Assembly (NCBI GenBank): GCA_018829445.1
Contig: JAHJTV010000103.1
Coordinates: 1 to 64,000 of the forward strand
DNA length: 64,000 nucleotides
From: a bacterium
GTDB lineage: Bacteria; SAR324; XYD2-FULL-50-16
Direction: 5' to 3'
The notes beneath the pieces were generated by a model. The model was not told the origin of the DNA. It saw nothing but the letters and a program-made list of their open reading frames with translations, and searched no databases. Positions 6,932 to 19,075 of the stretch are shown one piece after another (position 1 is the first letter of the stretch; each line of letters begins with the position of its first letter). The position numbers were made by a program, and so were the translations under genes.

Positions 6932-9571
6932 TTATTGGTTAGGAGACTGTCCTGTTTTCACTTTGTCAGCGAGAGTCTTCTTCAATACGTATTGGAGTTT
7001 TGAAATGGCGTCTATGATTAATTTGGACTGAATCTCATTAACATCAAATTCAGTCTGGATAGCGCTGACCTGTTTGAGCCGCGCCTGATAGCCAAATGCT
7101 ATATCCACCAGTTTTTGAAAATGCTGCTCAACAATCTGCGAAACGCCAAGGGCTAATTCCAGGGTTTGATGAGTCAATAACTTCTGTTCAGGGTTCAACA
7201 TCTCTTTTAATCGAATATCTCCACCCTCATCGGTCAGTTCATAGCCGTTTTCCGGAAGTGTAACTCTTTTGTCCTCAAACAATGAACCAATCTCCTCCTT
7301 AATCTCAATAAAAACCGACCTGGGGGTCTCAATTTTTACTTTCTCTGCAAATTCATCAGCATATACCTTAGAGACAATTTCGCTTTGTATAAACCTCCAG
7401 AGAGTATAAGCTTTGTTACCCTGCTCTTCGACACTTAAGTTTGGAAAATCCTGCTTGGTCTGTTTTACGATATCGTTGTACAGCTGTTTGGAAAGCTTTT
7501 CGGAACTGATGGATTGTCGTTTTTCCAGTGAGATGCCCAGGTTTTCATAGATCAGTTTTAAGATCCGGCTATACTGCATTTCTTGAATCTTATTCTGGTT
7601 GCCTTCAAACTCCCGGACTTTTTTCTCCGTTACCACAACTTCGATCACCTGGGAGTATTTTTTGATGAGGGTGTCCCGCAGTTCCGAAACCATGGTTATA
7701 CTCATCAGGTTTTTATTGATCATCCACTGCAACAGAGGCAGATACACCCTTTCATACTCTTCCGGAATGGGTTCACTGTTGTACAACCACGGTATTCTTC
7801 TTTTGGGAATAACAAAAATGATAAACATGAAGTCTGGAGGCTGATCCGGCTTTTTCTTGGGCATGCAAAGGGACCATTCCTCAACTTCTTCCTTCTTTTC
7901 TTCATCTTGATTTTGCGCCCAGGAATTGCCACCAATCAGGGTTCCCGGTTTGATCTGTCCAAAGCTTTTTTTGCCTTTTCTCAGCGTTATCCCTTCGGAT
8001 ATGGGCATCCAGTAATGGGTAGTCAGCTGGCTTTCGGGAATGATATCTTCTGCCCCCCCCTGGCAAATGAAGAACTGGTCCTGCACCAACTCTTCGGGAA
8101 ACCCAGCAGGCTTCAACGCCAGCATATCCAGAACGCTTTTAAATGACTTAACGAGATTTTTTTTAAGCTGGTCGGAAGCACAGGTTTTGACGATATCGGT
8201 TAATAACGGCACCTTTGATTCGGCAAATCTGATAACACCTGCGTAGGTGTAAGTATGTCCAACAATACGACTGTTATAGGCTTTAAAACCCTGGTTAAAA
8301 ACTGTCACTACTTCATCCAGAGAATTCCTGAGTTTATCCTCCTCTGTTTCCTCCTCCTTGCTGACAATAGCCAGTTTTCTCACCTTTTCCAGGAACATCT
8401 GCATCCTGGAAACAGAAGCGTTAAACTCATTTTCACAAGTGGCAGACAGTTGGGCTGTCTGTTGTGCAACCTGGGACAAAATGCGATTGGGGTTTTTTAG
8501 CCGGAACATCTCGTTTAGCGTTTTTAGATATGCTTCCAGGTTAAATTCGTTTTCCGCTTTTTTATTGCTGAAAAAAATGCTGGCTTTCAATTTATCAGGA
8601 TCGTATATTTCCTCGCGCGGCTGGACCTTCTTGAACATGAACTTGCGCTGAATGGATACCAGAAGAGTATGCATTCGCATTTGATAGATCCTGGGATTAA
8701 ACAGTTCGATCTCACCTATATTAATCGGCAGCTGATCATTGGGTAGAACTCTGATCAGCAGTTCTGCCGTTGTCTCCAACCATCTTTTCCAGATCATCTG
8801 CTTCTGATAGGTAAAAGCCTGATCCGTTCCTTTGAACTTTGTCCTGGGCAGCTTCCTGTCCAGAATCGTCTTCAGAATGTCTATCAAGGTCTTGGTGCTG
8901 TACTGAACATTATTCGGCCAGGAGAATTTGTGGGCAGATTGCAGGTATTGATGAATGACCTGCCAGATTTTCGGTTCCCATTTCTTATCCTCCTGCTTGT
9001 TTAGAGAACCAGTTATTAGCTGTATGTTCAATAGTTTCAGCTGCTTGTTTACCTCATCCCATAACTTCTTTTGAACCTCGCTGTATTTAAACAAGCGATT
9101 CTGAATCTCCAGAAAGAGATTGTAATAGATCTGCTTCTCCTGTTCAAAACTGGCATCCTCTATCTCACTGATTTTAAAATCCCGCAAGAACTGGCCCATG
9201 GGGATCTTAATCACCAGTGATTGTCCGCCTTCCGCAATGCCAATCGTGGCGTTTCGGGTGGAGTTTCGGTCTATAATGGCTTTGTCTCCAAACAAAGCAG
9301 GTCCATCCATTTTAACAATCACTTTTCCAAAAACAATTACATCGGCTAAGTGATTACATAACAGGAAAAGATCTTTGCCCTGTTCACCCTGCGTAATGAT
9401 CTTAAAACCCGGATTAAAAAATCCAAACTCCAGGGTCTGCAGTAATCTTTTCCCTAAAATCTCAAGACATATCTTAGTTAACGGGTAGGATTTAAGCAGG
9501 GTTTCCGATGCCTGTACTACCTCTGATCCGAATGATGATATCTTATAATAAATATTGTTTTGAAATGCCAT
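6932..9571 (-). CDS. Large protein with N-terminal cyclic-nucleotide-binding domain (879 aa)
   Basis: Residues about 50-130 form a cyclic nucleotide-binding (CAP effector-type) fold: GFKIITQGEQGKDLFLL, then the phosphate-binding cassette FGDKAI at 94-99 and R106-N-A-T. The canonical FGE Glu is Asp here, so ligand binding is uncertain. The remaining 750 residues are mostly helical, rich in charged and Gln residues, and match no family I know; a second possible beta-rich stretch at about 500-610 (PISEGITLRKGKKSFGQIKPGTLIGG) could be a degenerate second cNMP-like domain. There is no DNA-binding helix-turn-helix and no membrane segment. It forms a two-gene unit with the gene at 6024. It could be a large cytoplasmic sensor or scaffold. 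Confidence 0.75.
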   Translation of the reverse strand: MAFQNNIYYKISSFGSEVVQASETLLKSYPLTKICLEILGKRLLQTLEFGFFNPGFKIITQGEQGKDLFLLCNHLADVIVFGKVIVKMDGPALFGDKAIIDRNSTRNATIGIAEGGQSLVIKIPMGQFLRDFKISEIEDASFEQEKQIYYNLFLEIQNRLFKYSEVQKKLWDEVNKQLKLLNIQLITGSLNKQEDKKWEPKIWQVIHQYLQSAHKFSWPNNVQYSTKTLIDILKTILDRKLPRTKFKGTDQAFTYQKQMIWKRWLETTAELLIRVLPNDQLPINIGEIELFNPRIYQMRMHTLLVSIQRKFMFKKVQPREEIYDPDKLKASIFFSNKKAENEFNLEAYLKTLNEMFRLKNPNRILSQVAQQTAQLSATCENEFNASVSRMQMFLEKVRKLAIVSKEEETEEDKLRNSLDEVVTVFNQGFKAYNSRIVGHTYTYAGVIRFAESKVPLLTDIVKTCASDQLKKNLVKSFKSVLDMLALKPAGFPEELVQDQFFICQGGAEDIIPESQLTTHYWMPISEGITLRKGKKSFGQIKPGTLIGGNSWAQNQDEEKKEEVEEWSLCMPKKKPDQPPDFMFIIFVIPKRRIPWLYNSEPIPEEYERVYLPLLQWMINKNLMSITMVSELRDTLIKKYSQVIEVVVTEKKVREFEGNQNKIQEMQYSRILKLIYENLGISLEKRQSISSEKLSKQLYNDIVKQTKQDFPNLSVEEQGNKAYTLWRFIQSEIVSKVYADEFAEKVKIETPRSVFIEIKEEIGSLFEDKRVTLPENGYELTDEGGDIRLKEMLNPEQKLLTHQTLELALGVSQIVEQHFQKLVDIAFGYQARLKQVSAIQTEFDVNEIQSKLIIDAISKLQYVLKKTLADKVKTGQSPNQ

Positions 9572-9664: not shown

Positions 9665-10894
9665 CTAAGACTGTCCCTCCTTTCTCTTTTTTAGAGCAAG
9701 GGCTTCCTTTAAGCCTTTTTCTCTTATTACTTTGATTTTTAAACGGGTTTCATTCATTTTGAAAAAGCGTTGTCCATATTTCCTCAGCATCTTTTTATCA
9801 ATTTCAAATCCAAGACCGGGACGGGTAAATGGGGCTAACATTCCATTATTGTCAGGGATAATGGATTCGATGATACCATCCCGATATTCGGGTACCCAGG
9901 AAGGTTCTTCCAAGGGATATTCCAGCGGCAATGAGTTTTCCGGATCAGCAAGCACCATATTCCAGTTAACATGGAATCCGATTCCATTTGTCCATGTATG
10001 TGGCGTGAAGAGCCGTTTTCGTTCATGGCAGGTATCAATTACTTTTTTAACTTGGGCTATGCCCCCTGCAAAGGTTGCATCAGGTTGATACACGTCAAAA
10101 CAGTCTTTATCAAACATTATCTTGATCTCATCCCAGCCGTAATTAAGTTCGGCGCCGGAGATCTTTATTTTTGCAGCCTTTTTGAGTTTGGCATTTCCAT
10201 CATAATCCCTTGAATCCAAAGGCTCTTCCAACCATTCAATTTTATTATGATAACAGGCTTTTGCAAATGCCTTTGCGCGTTCGAAATCCCATGCCGGAAC
10301 CTTATCTACGATGGACACCAGCCAGCCCTGGTTAGCGTCTACGCCCAAAGTAAAACCGTCACCCATCCCCTTCCTCACCACTTCAATATGTCGGATATCC
10401 TCCTTCAGTTCAATATTCTTAACCCTCAACTTGGCTGTTTGATATCCCCGTTCTTTCATTGCCAGTAACTCATCTATTCTTTGCTCAGGATCATGCATCT
10501 CACCGGTTGAAAGGTAAACGGGGATTGTCCTTGCTTTACCACCCAACAGCTCATAAACGGGTTTATTTTCCAGCTTTCCTTTGATATCCCAACAGGCAGG
10601 TTCGATCCAGAAGTTACGCCAACCAAGATAACCGGCTTGTTTGAGCAGATCTTGCACACGATCAATATCTGTCGGATCAGCTCCCATCAAATACCCACCC
10701 AATAGATCTCCCAACCCCTGCCTTTCTTTTCCCATTGCAGATCCGGCAGCATAACCCTCAATCCCGTCATCTGTTACCAGTCGGATCAGCGTAAAACGAT
10801 TATGTGTCTGTGGATATCCGGGAATCCAGGTGGGCCAGAAAGTATGCTTCAAAGGAATTGAAACGTGATATAATTCTATGAGTTCTATTTTCAT
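9665..10894 (-). CDS. Mandelate racemase/muconate lactonizing enzyme family protein (enolase superfamily)
   Basis: A 409-residue enolase-superfamily enzyme, which abstracts a proton alpha to a carboxylate and stabilises the enolate on Mg2+. Metal ligands are visible: Asp186 (GVDANQGW), Glu223/224 (LEEP) and Glu249 (SGAE). A base lies in KLR at 155-157. A His299-Asp272 dyad (QPDATFAGG, TPHTW) has the same 27-residue spacing as in mandelate racemase, pointing to the MR subgroup (sugar-acid dehydratase or racemase). The substrate is probably an acid sugar or similar hydroxy acid, which cannot be read here. Cytoplasmic. It is in the same direction as the cNMP pair but separated by 93 bp; no sugar-acid transport genes are nearby. 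Confidence 0.88.
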   Translation of the reverse strand: MKIELIELYHVSIPLKHTFWPTWIPGYPQTHNRFTLIRLVTDDGIEGYAAGSAMGKERQGLGDLLGGYLMGADPTDIDRVQDLLKQAGYLGWRNFWIEPACWDIKGKLENKPVYELLGGKARTIPVYLSTGEMHDPEQRIDELLAMKERGYQTAKLRVKNIELKEDIRHIEVVRKGMGDGFTLGVDANQGWLVSIVDKVPAWDFERAKAFAKACYHNKIEWLEEPLDSRDYDGNAKLKKAAKIKISGAELNYGWDEIKIMFDKDCFDVYQPDATFAGGIAQVKKVIDTCHERKRLFTPHTWTNGIGFHVNWNMVLADPENSLPLEYPLEEPSWVPEYRDGIIESIIPDNNGMLAPFTRPGLGFEIDKKMLRKYGQRFFKMNETRLKIKVIREKGLKEALALKKRKEGQS

Positions 10895-11687: not shown

Positions 11688-12791
11688 ATGACTATTCAAA
11701 AAATATTTGAAAAGTATATTAGTCAGATAGATATCATTATTGCGACGACGTGCAGAAAGAAAAATATTACCGGAGTACTGGCCGGAGATTTTGGGTCTTA
11801 TGTTTACGAAAAACTGCTGGAGAACAATGGAAAGCGATTATTGGATTTTCAGGGCGATTATGGTGCTTCCTGGGGAGGTTACCTCTCCATCGTTATAACC
11901 CGTTTAGCGATAGATTTCACTAAAAAGCACTGGGGAAGATGGGAAAACTCAACCGCGGCAAGAATGCTGGGTGAAGCTTCAATGAGGTTTGAAGCGCTTA
12001 TCTATCGGGATAAGTATTCTTTTTCCGAGGCTTCCCAAACGATGCTGGATAATCCGAGTTATAGAGTTTTCTACCGGATTTCAATCAAAGAGCTCACCAC
12101 ACTATCAAGCGTTCTAGAAAAACCGATTCTAAAAAAACTGGAGGAGATTGCAAAAGTAACCCTTTATAACAGGGTTGAGTTTCTGGCCATCCTTGAGGAA
12201 GTGCTGAATGATGAGGAGATTAAGAGGGTAAAAAACCATCTTGGTGATTTTGAAGTCCTGTTGAGTATTCAGCTTCTGGAAGAATGGGATCTGCTTTTTC
12301 AGGGCAGGCTTCTACCTCTTCGTCCGGTTCCCGTGAACATAGGAATATATAAGGATGAGGATCATGATGACGAACTTGACGTTCTTGAGAATATCGAGGA
12401 CGGTTCAAAGCAGGGGCCTTTGGAGCAATTATTAGACAAGGAGATGAAATCCCAATTAGAATCAAAAATTGGAGATTTGATGGAAGACATTGGGGATAGG
12501 GATTGGATGATATTGATATTCTATCTGGTTGACAACCTGAGAATCTCTGAAATAGCCCGAATCATGGATGACGAAACAACTTACACGGCCAGTAAGAAGA
12601 GAGAAAAAATACCGGTTTCCTCCAAAAGCTGGAAATATGTCAATAGACGCATACAGTTTTTTACGGATCAATTGAAGACCAGTATTGAAATGATGAATAT
12701 CGATCGTGAAGATTGGGAAGCAGTCGCGCAGTATTGTTTGTATTTGATATCAAAAAAATTACAAAAAAAGAAACTTCCGTCGTCGATCTAA
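11688..12791 (+). CDS. Divergent sigma-70 family RNA polymerase sigma factor
   Basis: A 367-residue protein with a region 2-like segment (FGSYVYEKLLENNGKRLLDF, then YLSIVITRLAIDFTKKHWGRW). It is followed by the block WENSTAARMLG...FEALIYRDKYSFSEA, which I recall from a large-bodied class of ECF-like sigma factors, and a region 4-like helical part near 265-335 (LMEDIGDRDWMILIFYLVDNLRISEIARIM). Sigma factors direct RNA polymerase to specific promoters. It is about twice the length of a usual ECF factor. It is followed after 82 bp by a zinc-finger anti-sigma-like gene in the same direction, which supports the call. The start is the first ATG; no strong ribosome site is visible. Confidence 0.7.
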   Translation: MTIQKIFEKYISQIDIIIATTCRKKNITGVLAGDFGSYVYEKLLENNGKRLLDFQGDYGASWGGYLSIVITRLAIDFTKKHWGRWENSTAARMLGEASMRFEALIYRDKYSFSEASQTMLDNPSYRVFYRISIKELTTLSSVLEKPILKKLEEIAKVTLYNRVEFLAILEEVLNDEEIKRVKNHLGDFEVLLSIQLLEEWDLLFQGRLLPLRPVPVNIGIYKDEDHDDELDVLENIEDGSKQGPLEQLLDKEMKSQLESKIGDLMEDIGDRDWMILIFYLVDNLRISEIARIMDDETTYTASKKREKIPVSSKSWKYVNRRIQFFTDQLKTSIEMMNIDREDWEAVAQYCLYLISKKLQKKKLPSSI

Positions 12792-12873
12792 CTAAGTATG
12801 TATATTAAATCCAATCAAATCCACGAAAATCGTAAGACTTATGCTCCTAATACGTTAACTGTAAGATATTACC

Positions 12874-13839
12874 ATGCAATCTAATAACAGAGATCACCAG
12901 ATTGATTGCCCTGATGCGCAAGAACTTACCGCGTTCGTTGAGGGGAAGCTAAATTTACAGCAACAATCCAGGATTCTGCAGCATATCAGGACATGTAGTG
13001 ACTGTCATCAATTGGCTGTAGATGTGGTAAATATAAAGCGGGATCTTCCCGATAGTATTCTTAATATGGAAGCTGATCATCTGAATCAACGTCCTATCAC
13101 CAAGGTGCAGAATAGAATTAAACCTGCCTGGATGAATAGAATTCGAGGATTCAGGGCGGCAACCTTCGCGTTGCCTTTTGCTGCCGTATTTTTGTTTATT
13201 ACCCTGTTATCGCCGGAATCGGATTGGTCATCCGAACAGATTCTCCATCCTTTAAAAAAGAAAGCAGAGATTCAAAAAATCATTCAATCTATCACATTGG
13301 ATAACACCCCATCGGTTGCATTGAGTTTCAGCAATGGAACAACAAACCAGAAAATGGCGTTTAAGGCTGGAATTCTGCTAAGTCGTTTAGAGATCTGCCG
13401 GAAGGCAAAGGATTATAAGACAGGTAAACATCTTTCAGAAAACCTGGTCAATCTTTTAAACAGTGTTTCTATTGAGAGTCCTTCCAAAAATCTGATTGAC
13501 GAAATTGCAGCAAACAGCTCTCAACTGAACAGTGAGGATCAGCTAACAGCGGTCATCAAATCTACTGAAAGAATTTTCCTGGAGACGCCCATTGATTATT
13601 ATTTAAGACTAGGTTTGGTTGTTGAAACTGCAAAAGCATTCTCCTTGATTGGTAAATCGGAAATTTTCGATAAAGACTATTTTGTGTTCATTGTAACCCA
13701 ACCGGATTTTCAAAATCTCCCCCCTGGTGTAATCCGCAGATTAAAAGAGGTTAACGCATTACTGGCCAATAATTCTATTGCACGAGATTCAGAAATCATA
13801 TACAACCTCTTACAAGAAACAGAAGATATTTTGTTATAA
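12874..13839 (+). CDS. Zinc-finger (zf-HC2-type) membrane anti-sigma-like protein
   Basis: A 321-residue protein. Residues 12-44 carry Cys12, His37, Cys41 and Cys44 (CPDAQELTAF...HIRTCSDC), the zinc-binding anti-sigma domain that grips a cognate sigma factor in the cytoplasm. A basic stretch precedes one hydrophobic segment at about 92-112 (ATFALPFAAVFLFITLL), leaving about 210 residues on the other side of the membrane as a sensor of unknown type. The gene lies between the sigma-like gene and the exported protease gene, so it most likely holds the sigma factor inactive until an envelope signal arrives. The partner relationship is inferred from order and domain type. Confidence 0.78.
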   Translation: MQSNNRDHQIDCPDAQELTAFVEGKLNLQQQSRILQHIRTCSDCHQLAVDVVNIKRDLPDSILNMEADHLNQRPITKVQNRIKPAWMNRIRGFRAATFALPFAAVFLFITLLSPESDWSSEQILHPLKKKAEIQKIIQSITLDNTPSVALSFSNGTTNQKMAFKAGILLSRLEICRKAKDYKTGKHLSENLVNLLNSVSIESPSKNLIDEIAANSSQLNSEDQLTAVIKSTERIFLETPIDYYLRLGLVVETAKAFSLIGKSEIFDKDYFVFIVTQPDFQNLPPGVIRRLKEVNALLANNSIARDSEIIYNLLQETEDILL

Positions 13840-13918
13840 AATCAACGAATCATTGCCGTCTTTCTTGTAAAATCCTCCTTCCAAATTTGTATCTAAAGCT
13901 CGATGGATTTTTTATAGG

Positions 13919-16480
13919 ATGGGTCAACTTTTGAACTTTAAATGGTTTCAAGCTGTATGCACCCTATATATCGTAGTTTTACTATTTCCTTTCATTTTGA
14001 ATGCTGCAACAGATGAAAAAGGAACCGGTGAATTCTACATAAGGGAATACGGAATCCTCAGTTCAAACCAGAATCCAACGGTTGAGCAAGCCCAGCTTGT
14101 CTTCAGGCGACTGCTAAAATCCGCCAACGCCAAGCAGAATAATCAATATCGGCTTATTATTCTTCCCAAAAGTGCAGCAAACTGGTTAAATTGGGCGATG
14201 TGCCTGCCCGATGGGAGTGTGATCCTGGTTGAAAATATCCTGGATCTGTGTTTTGAGAATCACACGAAAATAACCGAAAAAGGGAGGGCACGGCTCGCGT
14301 TTATACTTGCCCATGAGATTTCTCATCTGCTTGATAATCATCATACCCATCTCAATCGCGGAACTATCCTGCATTTTCAAGAGGGTAGTCAGTCAAATAT
14401 TGAAGCGAATATTCGAAAAATTGAATCCCAGGCCGATTATTCCGGCTTAATTCTCATGACCCTGGCAGATTATGAACCGCGGTTCTTAATAGATCAATCC
14501 AATTTCTTTCAGGAATATTTAACAAAAGTAAGGTCTAATAACAATTTTGATGATCATTTTCCGCCGCAAAAAAGAAAAGATAATCTCAAAGAAAACCTTG
14601 AACCCCTGATTGATGAACTACCCCTCTTTGCAAGTGGGGTCCGTTACTTGAAAAAACAGGAATATGGCCCGGCTATCGAGAGTTTTACACAATTTGCAGA
14701 GATGTTTCCCGGCAGAGAGGTCTATAATAACATTGGCCTCTCCTACTATCAAATGGCTTTGAAGGATCAATCCAAGATCAATCCAAAAACACTGTTTCGT
14801 TTCATGCTGTCAACCGTGGTTGACAGCAATACGCTCGCTATCAAACTGGCTCCGGACGATCTCGGAGCTCCCAGGAGTCTAAAACAACAATTTAAAAAAA
14901 ATCTAGAAAAATCGAAAGAAAGCCTGAAGGTTGCCATCCACAAGGACCCAGACTATGCTCCTGCAAAAATAAACCTGTCATCTGTTTACATTACAGAACA
15001 ACGGTTTGAGGAAGCCTCCAAACTTGTGGATGAAGTGCTCCGACAACAGCCAGCGAATTCCGATGCCATTAACAATAAAGCCGTTGCCTTGTACCTGTCC
15101 AATCCTGAAAAAAACGCAGCAAAAGCGTTAACACTTCTGAATAATGTGGAGGAGATGCCCATGGGTTACTCCTTCCGCTATTCAAATTACAACAAATCCA
15201 GAATTCGCTTTGAGCAACTGGATTGTCTTCTGAACAGCAACCAAACCCTGGATATGGAATGCCTGTCAATTGCCAGAAAATCATGGAATCCCTTTCTGAG
15301 CATTGAAGACAATACGCATTATGCCCGACTGGTGAAATCGGAACTTGGTGGTAATAAACAAAAACAGACGAGGTTGCCGGAAAAAAATCGGGTGGCGCTG
15401 GTATTTGGAAACAGTTCCTATAAAAAAGCGCCGCTGCTTAATCCGTTAAATGACGCCAGTGCAATGAAAGATACACTGGAAGATTTGGGCTTTAAAGTCG
15501 TGCTGGGCCTGGATCTTACCCGTCAGGAGATGCTCAGGGAAATCAAACTGTTTGAAAAATTATTGACCACAGACAGCACCGGCTTGATCTACTATTCCGG
15601 GCATGGGTTACAGGTCAAGGGCGAGAACTTTCTGCTGCCAATCGGTGTTGAATCCGAGACGATTAGTTTTGATCTTCGTCCGGAAAGGCTGGAGGAAACA
15701 ATTAGAGAAGTAGCCATTAGTCTGAATACCGTACTGGAGATCCTGGCAAGAGTTGACAATGTGCAGAATATCATAATCCTGGATGCCTGCAGAGATAACC
15801 CCCTGCCAGGGATCAGCAGCGAATTCCAGGGCTTTGATGAAATGAATGCACCTCCCCGAACCTATATTGCCTATTCCACCTCTCCCGGTAAAGTTGCATG
15901 GGACGGCTTGGATGGTAATTATGGGGTCTTTACCCGTTCCCTGCTTAATCATATCAAACGCCCCAACGTAGATGTTAAGGATCTTTTTCAAATCGTTCGC
16001 AAGGAAGTGGCAGGCAAAACAGGTGATTACCAAATCACCTGGGATGTTTCCACTCTCGATGAGCAATACTATTTTAATCCGCCAAAACCCCAGGACTGGA
16101 CCTGGCATATTACTGCCGGGGTTTTAATGACGGTTGCTGCCTGGCAATCGAGAGAAGAAGCAAAAAAATATCGTGAACTGAATGAAGAAAACGACTATCT
16201 GAAGAAACAATACGACGATTCCCTTAATCTGGAAGAATATATCGACATTCGTGAGCGCTATTATATAAACCAGGAAAAAATGAAGACCCATAAAAAGAAT
16301 TACGAACAACTCGATATTATTACAATGGCTGCGTTGGCCTGGGAAGCGTATCTTCTGATCTTTGAGACCTATGACGAAGGTGTGTATGATAGCGCGAAAT
16401 CCATCTCTTCACCCAATGTAGTCTTAATGCCTACTCCCCAATTTAATGCTTTGGGGCTAACTTTACAATGGCAGTGGTAA
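13919..16480 (+). CDS. Exported M48-type peptidase / TPR-like / caspase (C14) fusion protein
   Basis: An 853-residue multidomain protein. Residues 8-28 form a signal peptide or anchor. At about 130 the HEISH zinc motif appears, with ESQAD near 169 supplying the third ligand, as in M48 peptidases. TPR-like helices follow at about 235-430 (YLKKQEYGPAIESFTQF, DPDYAPAKINLSSVYI). A caspase p20-like domain spans about 485-720: RVALVFGNSSYKKAPLLNP, the catalytic His in YYSGHG near 558 and the catalytic Cys in LDACRDNP near 621. The C-terminus has a hydrophobic segment, a coiled coil (about 745-790) and another hydrophobic segment. Two intact protease centres in one exported chain is rare. Its place behind a sigma/anti-sigma pair suggests it senses or executes an envelope-stress response. 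Confidence 0.88.
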   Translation: MGQLLNFKWFQAVCTLYIVVLLFPFILNAATDEKGTGEFYIREYGILSSNQNPTVEQAQLVFRRLLKSANAKQNNQYRLIILPKSAANWLNWAMCLPDGSVILVENILDLCFENHTKITEKGRARLAFILAHEISHLLDNHHTHLNRGTILHFQEGSQSNIEANIRKIESQADYSGLILMTLADYEPRFLIDQSNFFQEYLTKVRSNNNFDDHFPPQKRKDNLKENLEPLIDELPLFASGVRYLKKQEYGPAIESFTQFAEMFPGREVYNNIGLSYYQMALKDQSKINPKTLFRFMLSTVVDSNTLAIKLAPDDLGAPRSLKQQFKKNLEKSKESLKVAIHKDPDYAPAKINLSSVYITEQRFEEASKLVDEVLRQQPANSDAINNKAVALYLSNPEKNAAKALTLLNNVEEMPMGYSFRYSNYNKSRIRFEQLDCLLNSNQTLDMECLSIARKSWNPFLSIEDNTHYARLVKSELGGNKQKQTRLPEKNRVALVFGNSSYKKAPLLNPLNDASAMKDTLEDLGFKVVLGLDLTRQEMLREIKLFEKLLTTDSTGLIYYSGHGLQVKGENFLLPIGVESETISFDLRPERLEETIREVAISLNTVLEILARVDNVQNIIILDACRDNPLPGISSEFQGFDEMNAPPRTYIAYSTSPGKVAWDGLDGNYGVFTRSLLNHIKRPNVDVKDLFQIVRKEVAGKTGDYQITWDVSTLDEQYYFNPPKPQDWTWHITAGVLMTVAAWQSREEAKKYRELNEENDYLKKQYDDSLNLEEYIDIRERYYINQEKMKTHKKNYEQLDIITMAALAWEAYLLIFETYDEGVYDSAKSISSPNVVLMPTPQFNALGLTLQWQW

Positions 16481-17436
16481 GAATCTTGTCCCTATTAAAA
16501 CAGATCTTCAGATGCACGTTTCCCACCCTGGTGATTGTCTGTCTAATTGCCTGCGGATCACTGGAAAACTCTGACCTGCCTTCGGATGCGGAAGAGGAAG
16601 ATCTTGGAGACCGCACCAAGGTGACCGAGATAAACTTCGCTGATGCGGCCCTGGAAAAATGTATTCAGCAATACAGTGTTACCTATGCCTTCGAACTGCA
16701 AACCCTGGCCTGCAATCAGAAAGGAATTGTCAATATCTCCGGGTTGGAACATTTCACCGAATTGGTTCACCTGGAACTGGATGACAATTCCATTGAAGAT
16801 ATCAGCCCCATCAGTGGTTTAAAAAAACTGACGGCATTATACCTGAATAACAATCATATAACCGATATTGGCCCTGTCAGCGAATTGGTGAATGTAATCA
16901 ATTTAGACCTCAATCAAAATGAGATAGAAGATATTAGTTTTTTAATAAAACTTAAAAATATAAGCTACTTGGGTCTTTTTAGGAATAATATCGTAGATAT
17001 CTCATCCCTGGCCGGTTTAACCAAAATGATAAGCGTAAATATTGGAGATAACAATATCGTTGACGTTTCACCATTGGAAGGATTGCCAGAACTCAATTAT
17101 TTATATCTCAGCCATAATTCCATAAACAGAGTTGCACCTTTACGCACGCTGACCAACCTGGTTTTCCTTGCTCTGGATAATAACGAAATTACGTCAGCCT
17201 GTTATTTGGATACTCTGACAGAACTTATCGGTTTGCATCTGCATGGAAATGATGTTCAAGATGAGGTATCCTGTTTAGGCACATTGACAAAAATAATGAA
17301 TGTCAACGATCTCCAGATAAATCTTGAAGGCAATTTCAGTTTGCATTGTGCAGAGCTTGATGAACTTGAAGCTTCATACCCTATTCCTGGTACTGGGGAA
17401 GAATGTTATGTGCTACGTCCCGCCACCTGTTTATAG
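16468..17436 (+). CDS. Leucine-rich-repeat lipoprotein (SDS22/internalin-like)
   Basis: A 322-residue protein. The N-terminus is a lipoprotein signal ending in the lipobox LIAC (Cys near 29), followed by an acidic linker. From about residue 85 there are eight tandem 22-residue leucine-rich repeats of the pattern LxxLxLxxNxIxDIxPLxxL, closed by a Cys-containing cap (SCLGTLTK...CAELDELEASYPIPGTGEEC). Such repeats form a curved binding surface. The protein should be anchored in the periplasm or outer membrane. The start overlaps the preceding protease gene by 13 bp, so the two are translationally linked; it may recruit the ligand or substrate for the protease. Confidence 0.88.
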   Translation: MAVVRILSLLKQIFRCTFPTLVIVCLIACGSLENSDLPSDAEEEDLGDRTKVTEINFADAALEKCIQQYSVTYAFELQTLACNQKGIVNISGLEHFTELVHLELDDNSIEDISPISGLKKLTALYLNNNHITDIGPVSELVNVINLDLNQNEIEDISFLIKLKNISYLGLFRNNIVDISSLAGLTKMISVNIGDNNIVDVSPLEGLPELNYLYLSHNSINRVAPLRTLTNLVFLALDNNEITSACYLDTLTELIGLHLHGNDVQDEVSCLGTLTKIMNVNDLQINLEGNFSLHCAELDELEASYPIPGTGEECYVLRPATCL

Positions 17437-17639
17437 CTACTGTAGAGAATCTAACCTGATTTTTACTGATCAATTCCCGCTACAGAAATTGTCACACACG
17501 AGTTCCCGTTTAATCTGGTCTGTTATCTGAAAGTAAATTATTTATATTTTGTACGAAAAAAGCAGATCAAATGTCGTCTAGATAAACAAGATGTCTCACA
17601 ATTCAAAAAAACCTTCATACTTATAAAAGGGAGTCAGCC

Positions 17640-17828
17640 ATGAAAAAATTAGTTTTGTTTATAAGCACTGCAATTTTGATGTTGAGTCTAGGAAGCGTTC
17701 AGGCTTCAGAGAATAGTGAAGCTATTAATATCTATGTGAATTACAATATTATTACTGCAGAAATCCAGTTTGTTGATCAGGTCTATCCCTGCCAATACAG
17801 CTGGCAGATCCCACCATCTTGCAGATAA
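17640..17828 (+). CDS. Small secreted peptide (62 aa) with signal peptide and two cysteines
   Basis: A Shine-Dalgarno AAGGGAG lies about 7 nt before the ATG. The first 23 residues are a textbook Sec signal ending in VQASE, leaving a mature peptide of about 39 residues. The C-terminal 12 residues hold two Cys (PCQYSWQIPPSC) that could form a disulfide in the periplasm. No family is recognised. It lies between the LRR lipoprotein and the kinase-like gene and may be a signal or accessory peptide of this locus; that is inference from position only. Confidence 0.65.
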   Translation: MKKLVLFISTAILMLSLGSVQASENSEAINIYVNYNIITAEIQFVDQVYPCQYSWQIPPSCR

Positions 17829-17902
17829 TCAACAAATCCCGGTTTTGGTGATGGAAAACCGGATCATTGATTTTTTCGACAGTAAAGAAAAAATGACCAA
17901 CT

Positions 17903-19075
17903 GTGATGAAGATAAAAGATCTCGTCCGAACCGATTATGAGGTAGTTTCAGCACAAATCAAAATCTCTGAGATTTCGGAGCGATTGGCAGAGCTTTACTA
18001 TCTTGTAGTCAAAGACGAGGGTGAGTATGTTGGGATCTTATCTTCATCGCAATTTCCCAACCAGGGCGATCTTCGAGTAGCTGATTGTCTGGTCAGTACA
18101 CCAGTCATCGATTATGAATCGGATTTGGAAGAGATTAACGATCAGCTGCAAGGCTGCAAGCAGAACGCCTTGCCTGTATTCGCTCACGGAATCTTCAAAG
18201 GTGTTCTTCTTCAAAGTGATATTCTGAAGTTCATGGTAAATCACACCGGCAAGATGGGGCAGAAGATTTTTTCAGTCGAAGACAACCAAGCAGATTACTC
18301 TAAAGGTCTGGAAGGAGAGTTGGAAAAATCGCAGGGACTTTTAGACACTTATTCCCAGTACAGTCAAATCATAGAAAAGGTTCTCAAGGCTAAATCCGAT
18401 CTGTTAACCGACGTAAGCCAGGAACTCAGAAATCATCTTCACATCATTCTCAGCTACGTTGAGCAAGGTCTTAAGCAATCCAGCCCCTTGTCCCAGGAAA
18501 AATTCTATCGTTATTTTACCCGAATTCACGATAACAGTGAGAAAATGCTGAATCTGGTAACTGATCTTCTTGATCTGTCAAAACTGGATGCCGGAAAATC
18601 AGACTATAAACTTCAATCGCATAGTCTTTCCGATCTGATTGATGCTGTACTGGCTGAATACAATCCCCTGTTTACCTCCAAAAAGATATCCGTAGATTTT
18701 CTGAGACCGACCTGGTCGGATGTTATTTTGATGGATAAAAACAGGATTTCTCAGGTGATTCAAAGTTTTATTTCTAACGCATATAAGTTTTCTCAGGAAA
18801 ACAACAGAATTCGTATTGAGCTTAAACATCTGGAAAATGAGATATCACTTTCAATTACCGACTGGGGATGCGGAATTTCCCAGGAGGAGTTTGATACTCT
18901 GTTTGAAAAATATAACAGGACCAGCCTGGCAAGACAGGGAATAAAAGGCTCCGGCTTAGGGCTTCCCATAGCCTATAAAATAGTGAGCGATCATAAGGGT
19001 AAAATCTCTGCAAAAGCAAACCCTGAAGGAGGAGCCATCTTCTCCTTTACCCTCCCCATTTCCAGTACAACTTAA
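17903..19075 (+). CDS. CBS-domain histidine-kinase-like protein lacking the H-box histidine
   Basis: A 390-residue soluble protein. Residues 1-115 resemble a CBS pair (DLVRTDYEVVS, VADCLVSTPVIDYESDLEEI, ALPVFAHGIFKGVLLQSDI), which usually binds adenosyl ligands. A HisKA-like dimerisation helix spans 160-235, and an HATPase domain spans about 240-388 with Asn292, the D320-x-G-x-G box and GSGLGL at 349-354. The H-box reads VSQELRNHLHII at 171-182: the phospho-accepting His of S-H-E-L-R is Gln173. ATP binding should survive, but canonical autophosphorylation should not. No response regulator is adjacent. The start could be GTG 17903 or ATG 17906; no good ribosome site is seen. Confidence 0.85.
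   Translation: MMKIKDLVRTDYEVVSAQIKISEISERLAELYYLVVKDEGEYVGILSSSQFPNQGDLRVADCLVSTPVIDYESDLEEINDQLQGCKQNALPVFAHGIFKGVLLQSDILKFMVNHTGKMGQKIFSVEDNQADYSKGLEGELEKSQGLLDTYSQYSQIIEKVLKAKSDLLTDVSQELRNHLHIILSYVEQGLKQSSPLSQEKFYRYFTRIHDNSEKMLNLVTDLLDLSKLDAGKSDYKLQSHSLSDLIDAVLAEYNPLFTSKKISVDFLRPTWSDVILMDKNRISQVIQSFISNAYKFSQENNRIRIELKHLENEISLSITDWGCGISQEEFDTLFEKYNRTSLARQGIKGSGLGLPIAYKIVSDHKGKISAKANPEGGAIFSFTLPISSTT

Follow-up and report, generated by a model that had tools for sequence, protein, structure and literature searches.

In a 64,000-nucleotide stretch of DNA (the window; contig 111 of the 7.67-Mb genome G000) from an uncultured marine SAR324 bacterium, six genes on one strand encode an extracytoplasmic function (ECF)-like sigma factor, a membrane anti-sigma factor, an exported double protease, a leucine-rich repeat (LRR) lipoprotein, a small secreted peptide and a kinase-like protein. 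On sequence comparison, the conserved core of this locus is the trio of sigma factor, zinc-finger anti-sigma factor and a protease that joins an M48 metallopeptidase domain to tetratricopeptide repeats (M48-TPR). We propose, with confidence that is evenly balanced, that the trio is an envelope-signalling relay in which the M48-TPR protease, in the window with a caspase domain, acts through the anti-sigma factor to free the sigma factor. Protease control of ECF sigma factors is already known as a kind of regulation, whereas the trio itself appears to be undescribed.

A sigma, anti-sigma and M48-TPR trio

The reading frames were verified at the positions given by the initial annotation. Two further genomes of the same genus (G001 and G002) served for comparison with that of the window. 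The features are as follows.

11688..12791, + strand: ECF-like sigma factor, 367 residues, with a long insertion separating sigma region 2 from region 4; orthologues in G001 and G002
12763..12787, + strand: ECF-type promoter-like element 5' of the anti-sigma gene, A-tract plus CGTCGTCGAT; overlaps the 3' end of the sigma gene
12874..13839, + strand: membrane anti-sigma factor with a zf-HC2 zinc finger, one transmembrane helix and an all-helical periplasmic domain
13919..16480, + strand: exported double protease, 853 residues, with a signal segment, M48 domain (HEISH), TPRs, C14 caspase domain (SGHG/DACR) and C-terminal hydrophobic helices
16468..17436, + strand: LRR lipoprotein, 322 residues, with LRR_4 and a lipobox; 13-bp overlap with the protease gene
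17555..17581, + strand: ECF-type promoter-like element 5' of the peptide gene, GAAAAAAGCAGATCAAATGTCGTCTA; GTCGTC invariant
17640..17828, + strand: small secreted peptide, 62 residues, with a signal peptide and a C-terminal Cys loop, PC-x3-WQ-x-PP-x-C
17903..19075, + strand: accessory CBS-HisKA-HATPase kinase-like protein, phospho-acceptor His replaced by Gln

The first five genes keep the same order in G001 and G002 at protein identities of 27-58%, and the locus is therefore more than a chance assembly. Identity to the window copy is 52% (G002) and about 43% (G001) for the sigma factor, 36% and 27% for the anti-sigma factor, and 58% and 55% for the M48-TPR-caspase protease.

Conservation beyond the genus was assessed by scanning 84,980 species genomes with an M48-TPR profile alone, which gave 79 loci. 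These were picked by similarity to M48-TPR and not by the presence of a sigma factor, while the profile itself had been built from trio loci. Profiles for all three proteins were then rebuilt and applied to 77 loci. The anti-sigma gene lies directly 5' of M48-TPR in 54 of the 77, with a median gap of 17 bp and often a 4-bp overlap, and within 4 kb of it in 60; a recognisable sigma gene precedes the anti-sigma gene in at least 40. The carriers span at least six major groups, comprising SAR324, Desulfobacterota, Gammaproteobacteria, Magnetococcales, Acidobacteriota/Aminicenantes, Nitrospirae and a metagenome-assembled genome of the Planctomycetota. In more distant SAR324 loci the trio is intact, and the caspase is encoded separately or missing. 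The initial annotation had read the six genes as a coherent sensor-to-transcription layout, to be given up if gene order were conserved in no relative. That layout, with a protease at its centre, is conserved in the genus and, as the trio, across several major groups; within the proposed six-gene unit, however, the core is confined to sigma, anti-sigma and M48-TPR, the caspase fusion, LRR lipoprotein and peptide belong to the genus, and the kinase is accessory.

The sigma factor of the window is divergent. Its family matches are weak (TIGR02937 of NCBIfam, E=3.8e-5, under the curated cut-off), and a Pfam search gave no match for it or for the peptide. TIGR02937 nevertheless matches all seven aligned members (best E=3.3e-20), and it is through these aligned members that sigma regions 2 and 4 are recognised.

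The adjacent anti-sigma factor combines the H-x3-C-x2-C motif, invariant across nine relatives, with a single transmembrane segment at residues 90-116. Its sole domain match is zf-HC2 (Pfam, E=5.8e-4, slightly short of the cut-off). In the predicted structure (predicted local distance difference test score, pLDDT, 84) the zinc-finger helices can be made out, together with a single transmembrane helix and a periplasmic domain composed entirely of helices. At the zinc-finger end, profile matches in the PDB are to DdvA (8rot/8rw5/8rlz, the best), RsiW and 3hug. The periplasmic domain gave no PDB fold match below E=0.001 in the fold search and belongs to no Pfam family.

The periplasmic domain without its sigma factor

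In four loci the periplasmic domain occurs as a secreted protein lacking the zinc finger. In three of them it lies between a gene for an HtrA-like protease and M48-TPR, and a fourth locus holds an additional copy.

L091:7034-7942, L095:7073-7867 and L121:4968-5729: zinc-finger-free secreted periplasmic domain, adjoined by the HtrA-like protease gene and M48-TPR
L075:8814-9635: zinc-finger-free secreted periplasmic domain, additional copy 3' of M48-TPR

That the domain stays beside M48-TPR where sigma factor and zinc finger are missing suggests direct contact between the two proteins rather than mere co-regulation. This pairing is the best sequence evidence that they may work together independently of the sigma factor. 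A separate variation is seen in Thiomargarita and Parabeggiatoa (L133:354-1985, L144:1830-3386, L143, L149 and L150), where the cytoplasmic parts joined to the periplasmic domain have no zinc finger that can be recognised; for L133 and L144 this part is a long region of unknown nature.

The double protease and its caspase domain

In the window the protease matches C14 (E=4.8e-34), M48 (E=1.2e-7) and TPRs in Pfam, and all the expected motifs are present: HEISH with a downstream E-x2-AD, SGHG and DACR. The last two provide the His-Cys catalytic dyad of a C14 caspase. In the M48 domain, H132, E133, H136, E169 and H213 are invariant in nine sequences, accounting for HExxH, the third ligand and the plug His; H213 is presumed, by sequence position, to be equivalent to the His of the HP plug described for BepA (PMC7950410). 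A Foldseek search with the predicted structure found BepA (6ait and 6sar, probability 1.00, E about 1e-5), consistent with a BepA-like fold, at a low TM-score for a multidomain chain with a pLDDT of 69.7; the paracaspase MALT1 was also matched. The hydrophobic signal at the N terminus and the hydrophobic segment at the C terminus would keep both protease domains out of the cytoplasm, on the side where the anti-sigma factor exposes its periplasmic domain.

About 33 of the 79 loci have a caspase-fold protease (C14 or CHAT), either fused or encoded in the vicinity, and among 117 trio-flanking proteins C14 occurs in 11 and CHAT in 9. The 33 host genomes hold 127 CHAT and 101 C14 matches (228) in about 140 Mb; from this density fewer than one match would be expected in the 34 loci tested, against about 23 found. 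In about 12 genomes the sole C14 or sole CHAT gene is the one at the trio locus, as judged by matching contig, position and frame length. From these sequence associations, the caspase is a frequent partner of the trio and not part of its core. Fusion was rejected as the general arrangement, C14 being fused to M48-TPR only in the genus of the window and separate elsewhere.

A shared promoter-like element

The hexamer GTCGTC is invariant 5' of all five peptide genes in the three genomes. An A-tract lies ahead of it, in the arrangement GAAAAA-N11-12-GTCGTC, and the distance between the two would suit an ECF promoter. With a model built from these five peptide promoters alone, the 150 bp 5' of the anti-sigma start gave a match in all three genomes, at P<5e-5 in each of G001 and G002 and at P=7.5e-4 in the window when compared with random windows; the model also matches 5' of the G002 kinase gene (P=7.5e-4). 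The independent matches are those at the anti-sigma and kinase sites only, the pattern having been derived from the peptide sites. At the anti-sigma gene the motif is conserved as DNA: where it overlaps the 3' end of the sigma gene, in the window and G001, it is out of the sigma reading frame, and in G002 it lies in non-coding sequence. Lying between sigma and anti-sigma, the element suggests that the anti-sigma, protease and LRR genes may form a transcription unit apart from sigma, with a promoter of the kind that precedes the peptide gene. Its position is consistent with use by the sigma factor of this locus.

Across the three genomes the strict pattern gave 18 matches, compared with 40 for a reverse-pattern control. 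The clear promoter positions among the 18 are all at this locus; most others lie inside open reading frames or lack a close gene start, and a genome-wide regulon based on this pattern was rejected.

Genus-level additions

The LRR lipoprotein (LRR_4, Pfam E=3e-33; lipobox) and the peptide are probably additions at the level of the genus. The 13-bp overlap between the lipoprotein and protease genes is identical in all three members. In these three the peptide occurs at this locus only, in 1, 1 and 3 copies, and it was rejected as a general signal since no convincing off-locus copy was found in 58 genomes (best off-locus E=0.005).

The kinase carries CBS, HisKA and HATPase_c domains (Pfam). The initial annotation had described it as lacking its His, and the phospho-acceptor region indeed reads SQELR in the window, against SHEIR, with the His kept, in G002. 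As G001 has no orthologue and the His is intact in G002, the kinase was rejected as a core part; it is accessory, and the loss of the His is a lineage-specific event. In G002, three tandem peptide genes (L028:11024-13245) are interspersed with remnants of the kinase 5' part, and an ECF-type element stands before each unit. Two 246-nt repeats there contain the kinase 5' part and the promoter, one of them spanning the start of the kinase gene, and are the remnant of a duplicated peptide-kinase unit. Folding of a terminator-like hairpin between the peptide and kinase genes of the window was not significant (z=-0.9). The genome of the window has at least 50 histidine-kinase matches, in a SAR324 lineage rich in signalling whose genomes measure 7-8 Mb.

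Proposed mechanism and alternatives

We tentatively envisage the relay as follows. The zinc-finger anti-sigma factor would hold the sigma factor at the inner membrane, its helical periplasmic domain serving as a docking or sensing partner for the exported, BepA-like M48-TPR protease, which here bears the fused caspase domain. An envelope signal would alter the contact between anti-sigma factor and protease; it might be an outer-membrane protein that has misfolded, or a ligand recognised by the TPRs, the LRR lipoprotein or the peptide. One or both protease activities might then cut the anti-sigma factor in the periplasm, after which general site-2 proteolysis would free the sigma factor. Transcription of the anti-sigma-protease-LRR operon and of the peptide gene by the freed sigma would provide feedback. 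Sequence directly shows the composition of the gene set, the topology signals and catalytic motifs, the conservation of the trio across groups, its association with caspases, the promoter-like element shared within the locus, and the pairing of the periplasmic domain with M48-TPR in the absence of sigma; physical contact, the direction of cleavage, the signal and which sigma factor uses the element are inferred. The relay is favoured by the location of the protease domains outside the cytoplasm, where the anti-sigma domain is exposed. A more elaborate version, which we advance only as a possibility, is that M48-TPR and a caspase-fold protease act together in sensing the envelope, by way of the new anti-sigma domain, and release an ECF sigma factor, that this arrangement is widespread, and that in this genus it also drives the Cys-loop peptide and LRR lipoprotein, possibly as ligand and receptor in a feedback circuit.

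Several observations weigh against the relay. About 17 of the 77 M48-TPR relatives have no nearby anti-sigma gene, some of them at contig ends. The promoter model finds no element 5' of sigma itself, and there is no convincing element in the sister SAR324 trio loci. The LRR lipoprotein and peptide are missing from most loci and so are not the general sensor, and the caspase part of the predicted protease model is of low confidence. Finally, gene association gives no direction, and M48-TPR could be an output only.

This last point leads to the main rival, which we regard as a serious but somewhat improbable explanation. Here the proteases would be effectors of the regulon only: a dedicated sigma/anti-sigma pair would sense envelope stress through generic DegS/RseP-type proteolysis and switch on the BepA-like M48-TPR quality-control protease and a caspase-fold protease, whose task would be to clear the envelope in the manner of BepA-type proteases in Escherichia coli. 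The operon is predicted by both explanations, and the promoter-like element 5' of the anti-sigma gene would also drive the protease and LRR genes. The HtrA-like protease in some loci speaks for this rival, as does the degradation of stalled outer-membrane proteins by BepA (PMC7950410). Against it stands the pairing of the anti-sigma periplasmic domain with M48-TPR where sigma factor and zinc finger are missing. To our knowledge, moreover, the output protease of RseA/DegS-type pairs is not usually found in a conserved three-gene operon, which counts against a purely downstream role.

The initial annotation had also raised programmed death, for which we find no direct support. In such a conflict system a phage or envelope-attack signal would activate the caspase domain and the cell would die, the sigma operon being the control and arming circuit. 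Systems of cell death and immunity do include C14 caspases and CHAT proteases. In antiviral systems, moreover, namely Craspase and CalpL/CalpT/CalpS, a protease controls an ECF sigma factor (PMC10028731, PMC11417357). However, no toxic effector, NTPase or cas gene is among the identified neighbours, and PADLOC gave no system match, only a generic caspase model (E=1e-10) and weak partial matches; the EACC1 caspase model (NF047832) scored 42.5 bits against a curated cut-off of 140. The export signals put the proteases outside the cytoplasm, and the trio is found in assembled genomes of many phyla, usually with one M48-TPR kept. We consider killing an improbable function for this locus. More improbable still is a chance grouping, in which an ordinary sigma/anti-sigma pair would merely have the other four genes as unrelated neighbours. 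The kinase gene is lineage-specific, and those for the LRR lipoprotein and the peptide probably are too, but the trio is kept in at least six major groups and all three genus members keep the order of the five genes, so that chance stands as an explanation for the kinase only.

Relation to known systems

As in the RseA/DegS, RsiW/PrsW and RslA types, an ECF-like sigma factor adjoins a zf-HC2 anti-sigma factor with one transmembrane helix. The locus differs in its periplasmic domain, which is without a Pfam or PDB match, and in M48-TPR as a constant third gene. No PDZ serine protease of the DegS type (RseA/DegS/RseP) and no PrsW is present in the window locus, an HtrA-like protease being found only in the variant loci L091, L095 and L121. 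The protease resembles E. coli BepA/YfgC as an exported M48 enzyme with TPRs, HExxH, Glu as third ligand and a His conserved where the HP plug is presumed to be; it differs in having its own sigma and anti-sigma factors, a fused caspase domain, C-terminal hydrophobic helices and another TPR arrangement.

The DdvS/DdvA pair of Myxococcus xanthus likewise links an anti-sigma zinc finger to a caspase-fold domain. In DdvA, though, CHAT is part of the anti-sigma chain, whereas the window anti-sigma factor has no CHAT, the caspase-fold protease is a separate protein and M48-TPR is present; the signal that inactivates DdvA is unknown (PMC4374960). In the type III-E CRISPR Craspase (Csx29-Csx30-CASP-sigma; caspase-fold) and in CalpL/CalpT/CalpS (Lon), a protease cuts an ECF sigma inhibitor (PMC10028731, PMC11417357). 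Those systems are activated by target RNA or a cyclic nucleotide, while the inhibitor considered here sits in the membrane and has a periplasmic domain; neither cas nor SAVED genes are among the annotated genes around the locus, CRISPR arrays not having been searched. Sigma factors of the ECF54 type have CHAT, subtilase or carboxypeptidase neighbours, and proteolytic control has been proposed for them (PMC8999054). CHAT in a conserved ECF context is common to both, but ECF54 is proposed to act without an anti-sigma factor, whereas the present locus has an anti-sigma factor and M48-TPR as constant partners.

The initial annotation knew of no described system with this exact set of genes. We likewise found no account of it, nor of the trio or its periplasmic domain, in the open-access papers covered, subscription papers and ECF classification tables being outside this scope. 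The main text of a 2012 survey of prokaryotic caspase operons mentions neither metallopeptidases nor anti-sigma factors.

Only a few types of site-1 protease are known to act in the regulated proteolysis of anti-sigma factors: DegS, PrsW and Prc, and the CRISPR proteases Csx29 (PMC10028731) and CalpL (PMC11417357). If true, the relay would add a new class of site-1 protease and a new sensor domain, give bacterial caspases a regulatory rather than a killing role, and hint at the way in which bacteria other than E. coli link M48-TPR proteases to envelope stress. It may represent a widespread, unrecognised route from an outside signal to gene expression. Among the trio carriers are named isolates or enrichments, for example Desulfamplus magnetovallimortis (L088), and the relay may therefore be testable.

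Neighbouring genes

Rfam and tRNA scans of the window gave no match. All three genus members share a divergent gene for a cyclic-nucleotide-binding-like protein on one flank and the same LUD gene downstream. The divergent gene (window 6932-9571, - strand) encodes 879 residues with 63-66% identity in all three and no Pfam match; PADLOC TIR-effector models weakly match it over residues about 40-128, probably through the cyclic-nucleotide-binding region of those models. Between it and sigma, the window carries an enolase-superfamily (MR/MLE) gene (9665-10894, - strand) that is not there in the two relatives.

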